Part shown: in pieces, positions 15,730 through 32,334 of the stretch
Numbering within the stretch: position 1 is the first letter of the stretch
Layout of the letters: every line of letters begins with the position of its first letter
NCBI GenBank assembly: GCA_902761755.1
Contig: CACWLP010000017.1
Coordinates: 19,080 to 83,079, forward strand
DNA from: an uncultured Eubacteriales bacterium
Lineage (GTDB): Bacteria; Bacillota; Clostridia; Christensenellales; Aristaeellaceae
Direction: 5' to 3'
DNA: 64,000 nt
Notes under the pieces: model-generated
Seen by the model: the letters and a program-made list of their open reading frames with translations, nothing else
The model's database searches: none
What the model was told of the DNA's origin: nothing
Program-made: the position numbers and the translations under genes

Positions 15730-16938
15730 TTACAGAACGCTGACGATCCTTTCCACCGCCGCCCTGGTGTTTTCCAGGGTGTTGAAAGCGGTGAGGCGGA
15801 AATAGCCCTCCCCCGCGGGGCCGAAGCCCTCGCCCGGGGTGCCCACCACCTGCGCCTTTTTCAGCAGCAGATCGAAGAAATCCCAGGAGGGCATGCCCTC
15901 CGGCGTTTTCATCCACACGTAGGGGGAATGGACGCCGCCGAAGGCCAGGATGCCGGCCTTTTTGAGCCCCGCCAGGATCACCCGGGCGTTCTCCCGGTAA
16001 TAGGCGATGGTCTCCAGGATCTGCTTTTGCCCCTCGGGGCTGTACACCGCCTGGGCGGCCCGCTGGGTGAGATAAGAAACGCCGTTGAATTTGGTGGCCT
16101 GCCGCCGGCCCCAGAGCCGGTTCAGCCGCACGCCGTCGTACGTCACCTCCCCGGGCACCACGGTGTAGGCGCAGCGGGTGCCGGTGAACCCGGCGGTCTT
16201 GGAGAAGGAGCAGCACTCGATGGCGCATTTCTTCGCCCCGGGCACCTCGTAAATGCTGCGGGGAATGGCGTCGTCGGAGATAAAGGCCTTGTACGCCGCG
16301 TCGTACACGATGAGGGCGTCGTTTTCCAGCGCCCAGTCCACAAACACCTGCAGCTGCTCCTTGGTCAGCACCGTGCCGGTGGGGTTGTTGGGATAGCACA
16401 GGTACACCACGTCCACCCGTTTTTCCGGCAGCGGCGGCACGAAGCCGTTTTCCGCGTTGCAGGGCAGGTAGGTAAGGTTTGTCCACTTCCCGTTCACGTA
16501 ATCCCCCAGGCGGCCCGCCATGGCGTTGGAATCCACGTACACGGGATACACCGGGTCGGTGACGGCGATCTGCGCGTCCGGGCCGAACAGCTCCTGCAGA
16601 TTCCCCACGTCGGATTTGGCGCCGTCGGAAACGAACACCTCGTCCCGGGCGATCTCCACGCCCCGGGGGGCGTAATCCCCGGCGATGATGGCGTCGATCA
16701 GCCAGTCGTAGCCGAAATCCGGGCTGTAGCCGTGGAAGCCCTCGGGGGTGCCCATTTCATCGGCGGCCTTTTTCAGCGCCGCCACCACCGCGGGGGCCAG
16801 GGGCCGGGTCACGTCCCCGATGCCCAGGCGCAGGATCCGCGCGTCCGGGTTTTCGGCGGAAAACGTCTTCACCCGTTTGGCCACCTCCGCGAACAGATAC
16901 CCCGCGGGGAGCGCAGCAAGGTTTTTGTTGATCTTCAT
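15730..16938 (-). CDS. dapL: LL-diaminopimelate aminotransferase
   Basis: 402-residue PLP enzyme making LL-diaminopimelate directly from tetrahydrodipicolinate, which bypasses the succinylase/acetylase steps of lysine and cell-wall synthesis. [11 protein letters not shown] and the PLP-lysine motif [12 protein letters not shown] are typical of DapL. Upstream on the same strand is dapF, the next enzyme in the pathway, but a RAYT transposase gene now lies between them. Confidence 0.95.
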
Positions 16939-17024
16939 GCAGTACCTCCGGCCAGATTATTATTTCAGTATATCACCGGATGCGTCGAAGGCCGGTCAGG
17001 CCTTCGGCCGCCATCCGCGTCGGA

Positions 17025-17564
17025 TCACATCCCGTCCGGAAAGGGAAAGCCGCCGTCGCGGTCTTCCCGCCATTTCGCCGGGTTTTCGGCAATATAGCGG
17101 CAGGCAGCGTTGAATTCCTCCTCCGTCCGGATCACCCGGTCATAGAATGATTTCTGCCAGACGGAGCGTCCCAGCTGCCGGGTCACGGCCCGTTTCATGG
17201 AGCCAATCACCGTGGACAGCGTAGGGGCGGATATCATCCGCCCGTTTTCGCCGGCTGCATACAGCACAAGGAGATGCACATGGTCTGGCATGATGCAGAA
17301 GCAATCCACATCCACGTTGGCGTAATGATCAGGAATCGCGCGGATCGCCTGATCGACGGCCTTTCCCGCCCGGGTGAGCGGGAAGAGCGGGCGGATGATA
17401 TCCGCCCCTACGGCATCCGGCGGTTTTTCCGTCCATTCTCCGTTTGCGCCGCCGCTCCAGAATACGTTCCTGCGGGGCGACGTGCAGATGGTGACGAAGT
17501 ACGCGCCGCTGGCGGAATAGGAGAAATGGGGAAGTCGGTTCCGCTTTCTCTTCGGGAAATCCAT
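17025..17564 (-). CDS. REP-associated tyrosine transposase (RAYT), Y1 HUH family
   Basis: 179 residues from the ATG at 17564 (AGGTGG five bases upstream; a GTG at 17573 is the alternative). PHFSYSASGAYFVTICT opens the IS200-like Y1 fold; MPDHVHLLV carries the metal-binding HUH; SFYDRVIRTEEEFNAACRYI gives the nucleophile Tyr and the typical IAENP end. RAYTs are domesticated single-copy relatives that bind and cut REP hairpins starting GTAG or GGAG. Such REPs occur in this window, two of them inside this very gene. It is wedged between dapF and dapL in the same direction. Confidence 0.93.
   Translation of the reverse strand: MDFPKRKRNRLPHFSYSASGAYFVTICTSPRRNVFWSGGANGEWTEKPPDAVGADIIRPLFPLTRAGKAVDQAIRAIPDHYANVDVDCFCIMPDHVHLLVLYAAGENGRMISAPTLSTVIGSMKRAVTRQLGRSVWQKSFYDRVIRTEEEFNAACRYIAENPAKWREDRDGGFPFPDGM
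17221..17243 (+). repeat. REP palindrome inside the RAYT gene (GTAG on plus strand)
   Basis: GTAG followed by an inverted repeat GGGCGGATATCATCCGCCC (near perfect). On the coding strand of the transposase it is read as GRMISAPT. Confidence 0.9.
17389..17411 (-). repeat. REP palindrome inside the RAYT gene (GTAG on minus strand)
   Basis: Inverted copy of the element at 17221; on the transposase coding strand it is read VGADIIRP. The two copies face each other about 145 bases apart, a BIME-like arrangement within the reading frame. Confidence 0.9.
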
Positions 17565-17582
17565 GCCATCCACCTGCCGGGC

Positions 17583-18419
17583 TCAGTCCCCCAGCCACTC
17601 CCCGTCGTACACGAATTCGGCCGGGCCGGTCTGATACACGTGATTGTCCTCGGCGCTCCAGTGCAGTTGCAGATTGCCGCCGGACAGCTTCATCTGCACG
17701 GTGCGGTCCGAATTCCCGGCCAGCACCGCCGCCACCAGCGCCGCGCAGGCCCCGGTGCCGCAGGCCAGCGTTTCGCCGGCGCCGCGTTCCCACACCCGCA
17801 TCTGCAGGATACCCCGGTCGATCACCCGGACGAACTCCACGTTGGTGCGCCGGGGGAACAGGGGATGATGCTCGATCATGGGGCCGATGGTGGGCAGATC
17901 CACCACCTCCGGGTCCCGCACGAAAAGAACGGCGTGGGGATTGCCCATGTTGACGCAGGTGATGAACCAGGTCTGCCCCATGATCTGCAGCCGGTGGCGC
18001 AGCACCATTTCCCCGGGCAGATCCACGGGGATCAGGCGCGGGTTCAATTCCGGCGTGCCCATGTCCACCTTCACCCGGCTGACCTTCCCGTCCTCCAGCT
18101 GCAAACTGATCTGCTTGAGGCCGCCCTTGGTGTCGATGGTCAGCTCGGTCTTGTCGGTCAGCCCCCGCTCGTACACGTATTTGCCCACGCAGCGGATGCC
18201 GTTGCCGCACATGCCGGCCTCGCTGCCGTCGGAATTGAAAATCCGCATGCCGAAATCGGCGGTGTCGCTGGGCTCGATGAGGATCAGGCCGTCGCTGCCG
18301 CAGCCGAAGTGGGGCTTGCTCATCACGATGGCCAGGCGTTCGGGATCGGATACCACCTCTTCAAAGCAATTCACATAGATGTAGTCGTTGCCGATGCCGT
18401 GCATTTTCGTGAATTTCAT
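17583..18419 (-). CDS. dapF: Diaminopimelate epimerase
   Basis: 278 residues; converts LL- to meso-diaminopimelate for lysine and peptidoglycan. The two catalytic cysteines are in GMCGNGIRC (about residue 73) and ACGTGACAAL (about residue 220). Start MKFTKMHGIGNDYIYVN is the usual N-terminus. Downstream of argS by 55 bases and likely co-transcribed. Confidence 0.97.
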   Translation of the reverse strand: MKFTKMHGIGNDYIYVNCFEEVVSDPERLAIVMSKPHFGCGSDGLILIEPSDTADFGMRIFNSDGSEAGMCGNGIRCVGKYVYERGLTDKTELTIDTKGGLKQISLQLEDGKVSRVKVDMGTPELNPRLIPVDLPGEMVLRHRLQIMGQTWFITCVNMGNPHAVLFVRDPEVVDLPTIGPMIEHHPLFPRRTNVEFVRVIDRGILQMRVWERGAGETLACGTGACAALVAAVLAGNSDRTVQMKLSGGNLQLHWSAEDNHVYQTGPAEFVYDGEWLGD

Positions 18420-27600: not shown

Positions 27601-27623
27601 GTAGGGGCGGATATTATCCGCCC
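27601..27623 (+). repeat. REP palindrome
   Basis: GTAG then GGGCGGATATTATCCGCCC (9-bp arms around one base). Confidence 0.92.
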
Positions 27624-27640
27624 AAAAAGCCTCCCACACC

Positions 27641-27663
27641 GTAGGGGCGGATATTATCCGCCC
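27641..27663 (+). repeat. REP palindrome
   Basis: Identical core to the copy at 27601, same direction, 17 bases later. Confidence 0.92.
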
Positions 27664-27721
27664 GAAAAAGCCGGGCACACGAAATGTGCTGAAAACCATG
27701 AAAAATCAACATGTTTCCCGC

Positions 27722-27744
27722 GGGCGGATAATATCCGCCCCTAC
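27722..27744 (-). repeat. REP palindrome, inverted
   Basis: Same core with CTAC on the right (GTAG on minus strand). With the two copies at 27601 and 27641 it forms a BIME-like cluster just after the kinase stop. Confidence 0.92.
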
Positions 27745-31937: not shown

Positions 31938-32045
31938 TGCGCGGACGCCGGAAAATCGGTAAAAACCGGCCTGTCACGGCGGGCGGATGATATCCGCCCC
32001 TACGGTTCGGGCGCGCAATGGGCGCATTTTCCCGTCCGTCTGAAC
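31938..32045 (+). repeat. 108-base direct repeat, copy A
   Basis: Begins TGCGCGGACGCC and ends GTCTGAAC; contains the inverted REP at 31981. Copy B is at 32227-32334, same length, roughly four fifths or more identical by eye. Confidence 0.85.
31981..32003 (-). repeat. REP palindrome, inverted
   Basis: GGGCGGATGATATCCGCCC followed by CTAC. Confidence 0.9.
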
Positions 32046-32148
32046 CGTGCGCCAGAAGCCGGGCAGCCGTCCGACAACAACAGCCTATCTTCGTTCATCC
32101 CTGCGTACGGACAGATATTACCCGCCCGAGATTTTATTCATCGTTGCC

Positions 32149-32171
32149 GTAGGGGCGGGTATTATCCGCCC
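32149..32171 (+). repeat. REP palindrome
   Basis: GTAG then GGGCGGGTATTATCCGCCC; one arm base changed (A to G). Confidence 0.9.
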
Positions 32172-32193
32172 GGGAATTTGTTCATCGTTTGTC

Positions 32194-32216
32194 GTAGGGG
32201 CGGATATTATCCGCCC
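32194..32216 (+). repeat. REP palindrome
   Basis: GTAG then GGGCGGATATTATCCGCCC, same as the copies at 27601 and 27641. Confidence 0.92.
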
Positions 32217-32226
32217 GAAGAAACGA

Positions 32227-32334
32227 TGCGCGGACGCCTGGAAATCGGCAAAAAGCGGCCTGTTACGGCGGGCGGATGATATCCGCCCCTATGGATCAGA
32301 CGCGCGATGGGCGCAGTTTCCCGCCCGCCTGAAC
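32227..32334 (+). repeat. 108-base direct repeat, copy B
   Basis: Matches copy A at 31938-32045 over its whole length with scattered substitutions and no obvious indel; includes the REP at 32270. Confidence 0.85.
32270..32292 (-). repeat. REP palindrome, inverted, GTAG changed to ATAG
   Basis: GGGCGGATGATATCCGCCC followed by CTAT instead of CTAC. Confidence 0.88.

Follow-up and report, generated by a model that had tools for sequence, protein, structure and literature searches.

Facing REP hairpins inside the coding sequence of a RAYT gene are conserved as DNA and may be a cis substrate of the encoded transposase

The RAYT gene studied here, which encodes a REP-associated Y1/HUH transposase, carries two facing REP hairpins within its own reading frame, and among related genes such internal hairpins are conserved at the DNA level, either by selection or by copying. 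It lies in a stretch of 64,000 nucleotides (the window in the following) on contig CACWLP010000017.1 of an uncultured Eubacteriales bacterium of the Aristaeellaceae. Directly observed are the position of the hairpins, their pairing, their conservation as DNA, the agreement of the two copies within a gene, stem differences that are mostly compensated, and an inverse relation with REPs in the flanks. We propose that the pair serves the enzyme as a cis substrate, an explanation which in our judgement has about an even chance of being correct.

The reading frame listed in Table 1 starts at an ATG; an alternative GTG start is present nine bases upstream, at 17573 in the ORF listing, and all residue numbers are counted from this GTG. 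The protein matches the Pfam family Y1_Tnp (E 5.5e-5) and the NCBIfam model NF047646, REP_Tyr_transpos (E 1.8e-18). As the score of the latter, 66.9 bits, is below the cut-off of 80 bits, the protein is not filed under this equivalog. The best relative of solved structure is 4er8 (profile E 5.3e-13), a REP-associated tyrosine transposase in complex with a REP hairpin, and it also ranked first in a Foldseek search (E 7.3e-7, TM 0.56/0.61) with an AlphaFold model of mean pLDDT 82.9. An HUH motif followed downstream by a tyrosine makes the protein a Y1/HUH enzyme; sequence and fold kinship to E. coli TnpA_REP and a GTAG-footed REP family in the same genome make it a RAYT/TnpA_REP in the broad sense, and the identity assigned in the initial annotation is upheld by the Y1_Tnp and 4er8 matches. 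All 44 sequences of alignment A2, that of the window among them, have H98, H100 and Y160, and both histidines are also invariant in the 14 sequences of alignment A1. From its place in the YIxxNP motif, Tyr160 is presumed to be the catalytic tyrosine. The protein has a single match in its own genome (2.2 Mb in 46 contigs, 73% complete). Just 3′ of the stop codon, at 16986-17006, there is a perfect 8-bp hairpin with a loop of 5 nt, which is not followed by a T run on the gene strand.

The two internal REPs, R1 and R2, are identical palindromes of 23 nt, GTAGGGGCGGATATCATCCGCCC, with the GTAG ends pointing outward. Their positions and strands as well as the in-frame peptides read from them are as initially annotated. 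Each folds as single-stranded DNA into an 8-bp stem with a 3-nt loop, and the pair spans 191 bp, the interior of which is coding. In the AlphaFold model, the R1 residues precede the HUH motif and lie in a coil whose pLDDT is below 50 at residues 54-59; R2 encodes the coil that leads from the HUH strand to the helix of residues 119-134. A scan of the window with up to 4 mismatches found seven further copies of the palindrome between 27.6 and 32.3 kb, in agreement with the initial count of at least seven. Apart from the internal pair no copy was detected between positions 1 and 27600, and flanking REPs of the REPtron type, a layout that is common for RAYT genes though not universal, are absent here. 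Genome-wide, 32 copies with up to 2 mismatches were counted and none with the reversed pattern as control. The palindromes within the gene belong to the REP family of this genome. Extragenic facing pairs of 98-115 bp are present as well. Their interiors, compared by eye, show no similarity to that of the internal pair, and on this comparison a MITE-like origin of the extragenic pairs from the RAYT interior is unsupported. Loci were obtained for 30 of the 32 copies; seven other ORFs of at least 100 aa contain a REP, all without a Pfam match, and the idea that REPs generally sit in genes of this genome is likewise unsupported.

Table 1. Coordinates of the RAYT gene, its internal REPs, neighbouring genes and further REPs in the window
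Feature	Position	Strand	Basis or remark
RAYT (REP-associated Y1/HUH transposase) coding sequence	17025..17564	-	ORF from ATG; Y1_Tnp, REP_Tyr_transpos and 4er8 matches
Internal REP 1 (R1)	17389..17411	-	GTAG foot at 17411; in-frame VGADIIRP, residues 55-62
Internal REP 2 (R2)	17221..17243	+	GTAG foot at 17221; complement in-frame GRMISAPT, residues 111-118
HUH motif codons H98-V99-H100, between both internal REPs	17274..17282	-	alignments A1, A2
Tyr160 codon	17094..17096	-	invariant residue, YIxxNP motif
dapF, upstream neighbour of RAYT	17583..18419	-	TIGR00652
LL-diaminopimelate aminotransferase gene (called dapL here), downstream neighbour	15730..16938	-	TIGR03542
Three further REPs: 27601+, 27641+, 27722-	27601..27744	.	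window scan
Four further REPs: 31981-, 32149+, 32194+, 32270-	31981..32292	.	window scan

Internal REPs were surveyed in 99 RAYT genes, comprising the gene of the window, 18 relatives belonging to its family and, from named genomes, the best 80 of at least 515 relatives (from at least 589 stretches), ranked with a query that contained the REP-encoded residues. The family search matched 24 of 200 genomes, the window's own included, and gave 29 rows; left out of these were the row of the window itself and ten others that were weak or partial (L046-L054, L057). GTAG hairpins occur in the coding sequence of 81 genes, a hairpin made of masked letters in L113 being discarded: 56 genes have separate plus and minus hairpins, 22 a single hairpin and 3 one full palindrome with a double foot, while 18 have none. 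The 18 family-search genes alone gave 8 pairs, 6 singles and 4 genes with none. After shuffling, GTAG hairpins of at least 7 bp were found in only 11 of 1020 sequences (102 RAYT coding sequences, ten times each, by dinucleotide walk with runs up to 10% shorter accepted). The hairpins sit mostly at the same two loops and are lineage-specific in sequence, with 23 to 26 nt; in an alignment of 14, the sequences without REPs have shorter loops at both places. It had been considered that homologues in genomes lacking the window's REPs might carry the same residues, which is mostly not so: most relatives have other residues at both loops, and these are encoded by another palindrome. Internal pairs are also carried by Ruminococcus bicirculans 80/3 (L071) and Gemmiger formicilis (L083). 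Among other RAYT-like genes, represented by 30 fetched top matches to NF047646 in the phylum, no internal GTAG hairpin was detected. Most of these (27) are longer, with at least 220 residues, and the three of similar length (161-168 residues) have 4 to 24 GTAG hairpins outside the gene.

Several genes depart from the common layout. In L110 and L130 the pair is found in opposite order, the minus hairpin first and the plus hairpin second, which suggests an independent insertion. The second loop of L127, L131 and L139 holds a single full palindrome with GTAG feet on both sides; these genes come from an unnamed bacterium and from MAGs of Desulfuromonas and Moraniibacteriota. L106, L111, L119 and L122 contain several in-frame units of the REP-encoded segment within one loop, for instance KGSPLPI repeats in L119 and TGPSGTPAPTRE-like units in L122. 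Outside the Bacillota, an in-gene GTAG hairpin of the same kind was seen in the gammaproteobacterium Histophilus somni (L126). A facing pair with a RAYT-like span of 194 bp at G202:C22:29615-29808 is perhaps the internal pair of a RAYT.

The comparison of R1 with R2 reveals a close agreement of the two copies within a gene. Their median edit distance is 1 as compared to 9 between genes, and 26 of the 56 pairs are exactly identical. The summed distance of 60 is far below that of 10000 permutations (mean 452, minimum 378). In 53 pairs (the 56 without L109, L110 and L130), R2 was closer to R1 of the same gene than R2 of the nearest relative in 35 cases, farther in 4 and tied in 14. In 51 of these 53 pairs the start of R1 falls on a single alignment column; the codon phase of R1 is 0 in 51 of 53 and 1 in the other two. 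Among the 30 non-identical pairs, 18 stem differences are compensated and 5 uncompensated, 19 fall into the loop and none into the GTAG foot. Here, the number of 5 holds with a stem length fixed per REP length and becomes 3 with variable stem lengths; without L109 and L110, which are non-identical and of other order, there are 13 compensated against 5 uncompensated differences. These counts are biased against uncompensated changes, since the search accepted hairpins with no more than one mismatch in the stem. At identical residues the same codon is used in 234 of 266 REP sites as compared to 999 of 2083 other sites (28 disjoint pairs out of 1409, from 102 genes). The more two proteins differ outside the REPs, the more their REPs differ (r 0.32, against at most 0.11 in 2000 permutations). 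As the genes are related, the permutation and Fisher figures given here overstate independence. Because the copies match within a gene and synonymous positions are conserved, it is as DNA that the REPs are kept or re-copied. The nearly fixed synonymous REP sites and the variation of frame and order led us to reject conservation at the protein level as the main cause.

The internal pair is inversely related to REPs next to the gene. Among the genes with a pair, 13 of 54 have GTAG hairpins within 300 bp outside; the figure is 20 of 23 for genes with a single hairpin or full palindrome and 11 of 17 for those with none. Distances were taken from the ends of the protein match, and the count covers those 94 of the 99 genes for which 300 bp were available on either side. 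Genes without an internal pair thus have flanking REPs in 31 of 40 cases (pair versus rest: Fisher p 3e-7, kinship ignored). Since pair genes seldom and other genes usually have flanking REPs, the internal pair seems to replace them, and it may stand in for the flanking REPs of a REPtron. At 10 of the 18 genes without internal REPs (L104 left out), a plus REP upstream and a minus REP downstream were found within 400 bp, an arrangement that is a facing pair around the gene.

Internal REPs also correspond to the REPs elsewhere in their genomes. For the 81 genes with internal hairpins, 90 of 234 flank hairpins are within 3 edits of the gene's own internal REP, compared to a mean of 6.1 for a foreign one. 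An extragenic hairpin within 3 edits of the internal one was present in the fetched flanks of 37 of these genes, and no such near copy in the fetched flanks of the other 44. Among the matches listed genome-wide, the internal stem type is the main one in G000, G060 and G034; it is frequent in G208, occurs also in G202, G203, G204 and G209, forms a minority in G200 and is represented by few copies in G148; in G201 and G206 the exact internal type was not found outside the gene among these matches. The extragenic facing pairs of G060 often combine one REP subtype, GCGATGCGC, with another, GCCAATGGC, as if the arms were kept distinct. In G226, the arms of extragenic facing pairs are identical in 10 of 43 among the matches listed.

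Of 29 genomes of the genus, 6 yielded a close RAYT; in these, REPs of the window's type number 28 in G000, 47 in G230, 27 in G219, 54 in G218, 296 in G226 and 16 in G229. Of the 23 genomes without a close RAYT, 13 have no such REP and 3 reach 16; three genomes with distant RAYT matches only (G115, G069, G214) have no REPs of the window type. The association of RAYT presence with REP number is supported by a one-sided Mann-Whitney test (p 6e-4) and a Fisher test (p 2e-4), kinship being ignored in both. It had been pointed out that many palindromes with no link to RAYT presence would speak against the initial reading. In this genus REP number largely goes with RAYT presence, with the exception of G134, G150 and G176, in which 58, 38 and 29 REPs were counted and no RAYT was found, although incomplete assemblies may hide RAYTs in this comparison. 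A large REP population does not depend on internal copies, because G226, with R1 only, has 296 REPs and G218, with neither copy in its RAYT gene, has 54; on account of these two genomes, internal REPs as drivers of REP abundance were rejected.

Among 20 loci of the genus fetched around dapF, the gap between dapF and dapL holds a RAYT match in 5 and none in 15; in part of the genus, the RAYT gene occupies a fixed position. By eye, the dapF-dapL stretches of L145, L151, L155, L157 and L160 resemble decayed RAYT ends, and a RAYT gene may be decaying at this place. Both REPs are retained in three of the five genes (G000, G229, G219), and R2 is lost with the frame remaining open in the other two (G230, G226). 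No REPs outside the gene were found in the stretches examined for G000, G219 and G229; in G230, G226 and G218, where one or both internal copies are missing, REPs lie close outside the gene. The loop of both internal REPs reads ATC in G000 and G229 and AGC in G219. As AGC is absent from the remaining 25 copies of this pattern in G219, its internal copies share a change that was not derived from these. The AGC loop is equally compatible with selection and with copying from one internal REP to the other.

According to PMC8266576, E. coli TnpA_REP recognises the single-stranded REP, not its reverse complement, and cleaves at CT. By analogy with this enzyme, we propose that the encoded RAYT would bind, and may nick, the internal hairpins when its own gene is single-stranded. 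The REP pair is positioned inside the coding sequence instead of beside the gene, in two loops bracketing the HUH codons; it is translated as protein, but what persists, or is made anew time and again, are DNA hairpins that match the REP type of the genome. As a cis substrate, the hairpins would tie the enzyme to the repeat type and could possibly limit the expression or the spread of the RAYT itself. A quite plausible competitor, to which we nevertheless give somewhat less than an even chance, is that the REPs are selfish insertions tolerated in flexible loops, harmless and functionless, and homogenised by gene conversion or by template switching from one inverted repeat to the other. Tolerated insertion is the view published for subclass 2.4 in the main-text sections of PMC6006769. 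It is in line with the low-confidence coil at R1, with the loss of R2 from two of the five dap-locus genes with the frame intact and of both copies in G218, with the units multiplied in one loop of four genes (L106, L111, L119, L122), and with the confinement of the rare AGC loop in G219 to both internal copies. However, insertion without function does not readily account for the recurrence in many lineages of facing pairs that occupy the same loops, mostly in one outer codon phase, for the inverse relation with flanking REPs, or for the fact that among the 30 copies fetched no insertion into a recognisable gene was seen elsewhere, the seven REP-bearing ORFs having no Pfam match.

Two further explanations place the function in the gene products. 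R1 and R2 could fold in the transcript, locally or together, and as an autoregulatory mRNA element slow translation or alter decay, which we consider rather unlikely. The coding RNA is indeed more stably folded than its shuffles (z -5.3, 0 of 100 as good), and in the predicted minimum-energy fold all 23 bases of R1 pair with R2 around the HUH segment. However, the fold of one sequence is weak evidence, genes with a single copy exist, and the 18 compensated differences between R1 and R2 keep each hairpin but break the pairing of R1 with R2, so that a long-range helix was rejected as the structure that is kept across the family. Much less probable still, and in our view very unlikely, is a function of the peptides themselves, i.e. 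a specificity loop written in the DNA which it recognises. R2 directly precedes the helix of residues 119-134, which by position would correspond to the REP-contacting helix of E. coli TnpA_REP as described in PMC8266576. On the other hand, some genes (2 of 53) translate the REP in a different frame, the order is reversed in L110 and L130, synonymous REP sites are nearly fixed, the R1 loop is poorly ordered, and the peptides are lost in some close relatives.

Should the reading as a cis substrate extend to the wider group, two facing REPs in cis, whether within the gene or next to it, would be a working part of such RAYTs, acting as built-in address and brake; we regard this generalisation as doubtful. 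If it is true, enzyme specificity and repeat type would be inherited as one unit and change together. Genes with their own in-frame repeats offer a direct test of long-term matching between REP and RAYT, because synonymous recoding can erase the hairpins and leave the protein untouched. The comparison of genes already separates DNA-level from protein-level conservation.

The core of this finding, in-frame REPs in tnpA_REP genes, was already published in 2018. In its main-text sections, the study of Quentin et al. (PMC6006769) describes REPs inside tnpA_REP genes of subclass 2.4, which is RAYT group 4 of Bertels et al., generally located between HuH and Y with the frame undisrupted, and regards the insertion region as peripheral with little impact. 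The initial statement that REPs normally lie outside genes therefore fails for this type of transposase, as judged from the same sections. In contrast, the literature searched gave no report of the pairing in facing orientation, of a concerted and mostly compensated change, of conservation at synonymous sites or of the trade-off with flanking REPs; this holds for the literature which included main-text sections of PMC6006769; its supplementary Figure S10, showing insertions, lay outside this scope. Compared with subclass 2.4 as presented in these sections, the window gene likewise has a REP in frame (R2) in the variable loop from the HuH strand to the next helix, a WQ motif and canonical long and double-foot REPs, and it has no C-terminal extension, none being reported there for 2.4. 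Unlike the published cases, it has two facing copies, the first of which is upstream of HuH. The distance from HuH to the tyrosine is about 60 residues as against a reported median of 88, which is no cut-off, and the motifs are DHVH, WQ and YIAENP as against NH[IFV]H, WQ and YIxNNP (PMC6006769). In the alignment of 14, the relatives of the window RAYT often have NHVH or NHIH.

With E. coli TnpA_REP (group 2, 4er8) the window RAYT shares the Y1/HUH fold and a GTAG-footed REP family in the genome. In the case of the E. coli enzyme REPs flank the gene, and 4er8 has an alignment gap where R2 of the window lies. The internal pair also resembles a REPIN, reportedly defined by Bertels and Rainey in 2011 as a facing REP pair, in its two inverted REPs with GTAG outward, as do the extragenic facing pairs of this genome; unlike a REPIN, it is of greater span and encloses coding sequence. 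Intragenic REPs reported by Di Nocera et al. in 2013 occur, according to the text sections of PMC3733652, in diverse genes, many of them for DNA synthesis or repair, and mostly at differing sites; like the REPs described here, they are translated in frame inside proteins.
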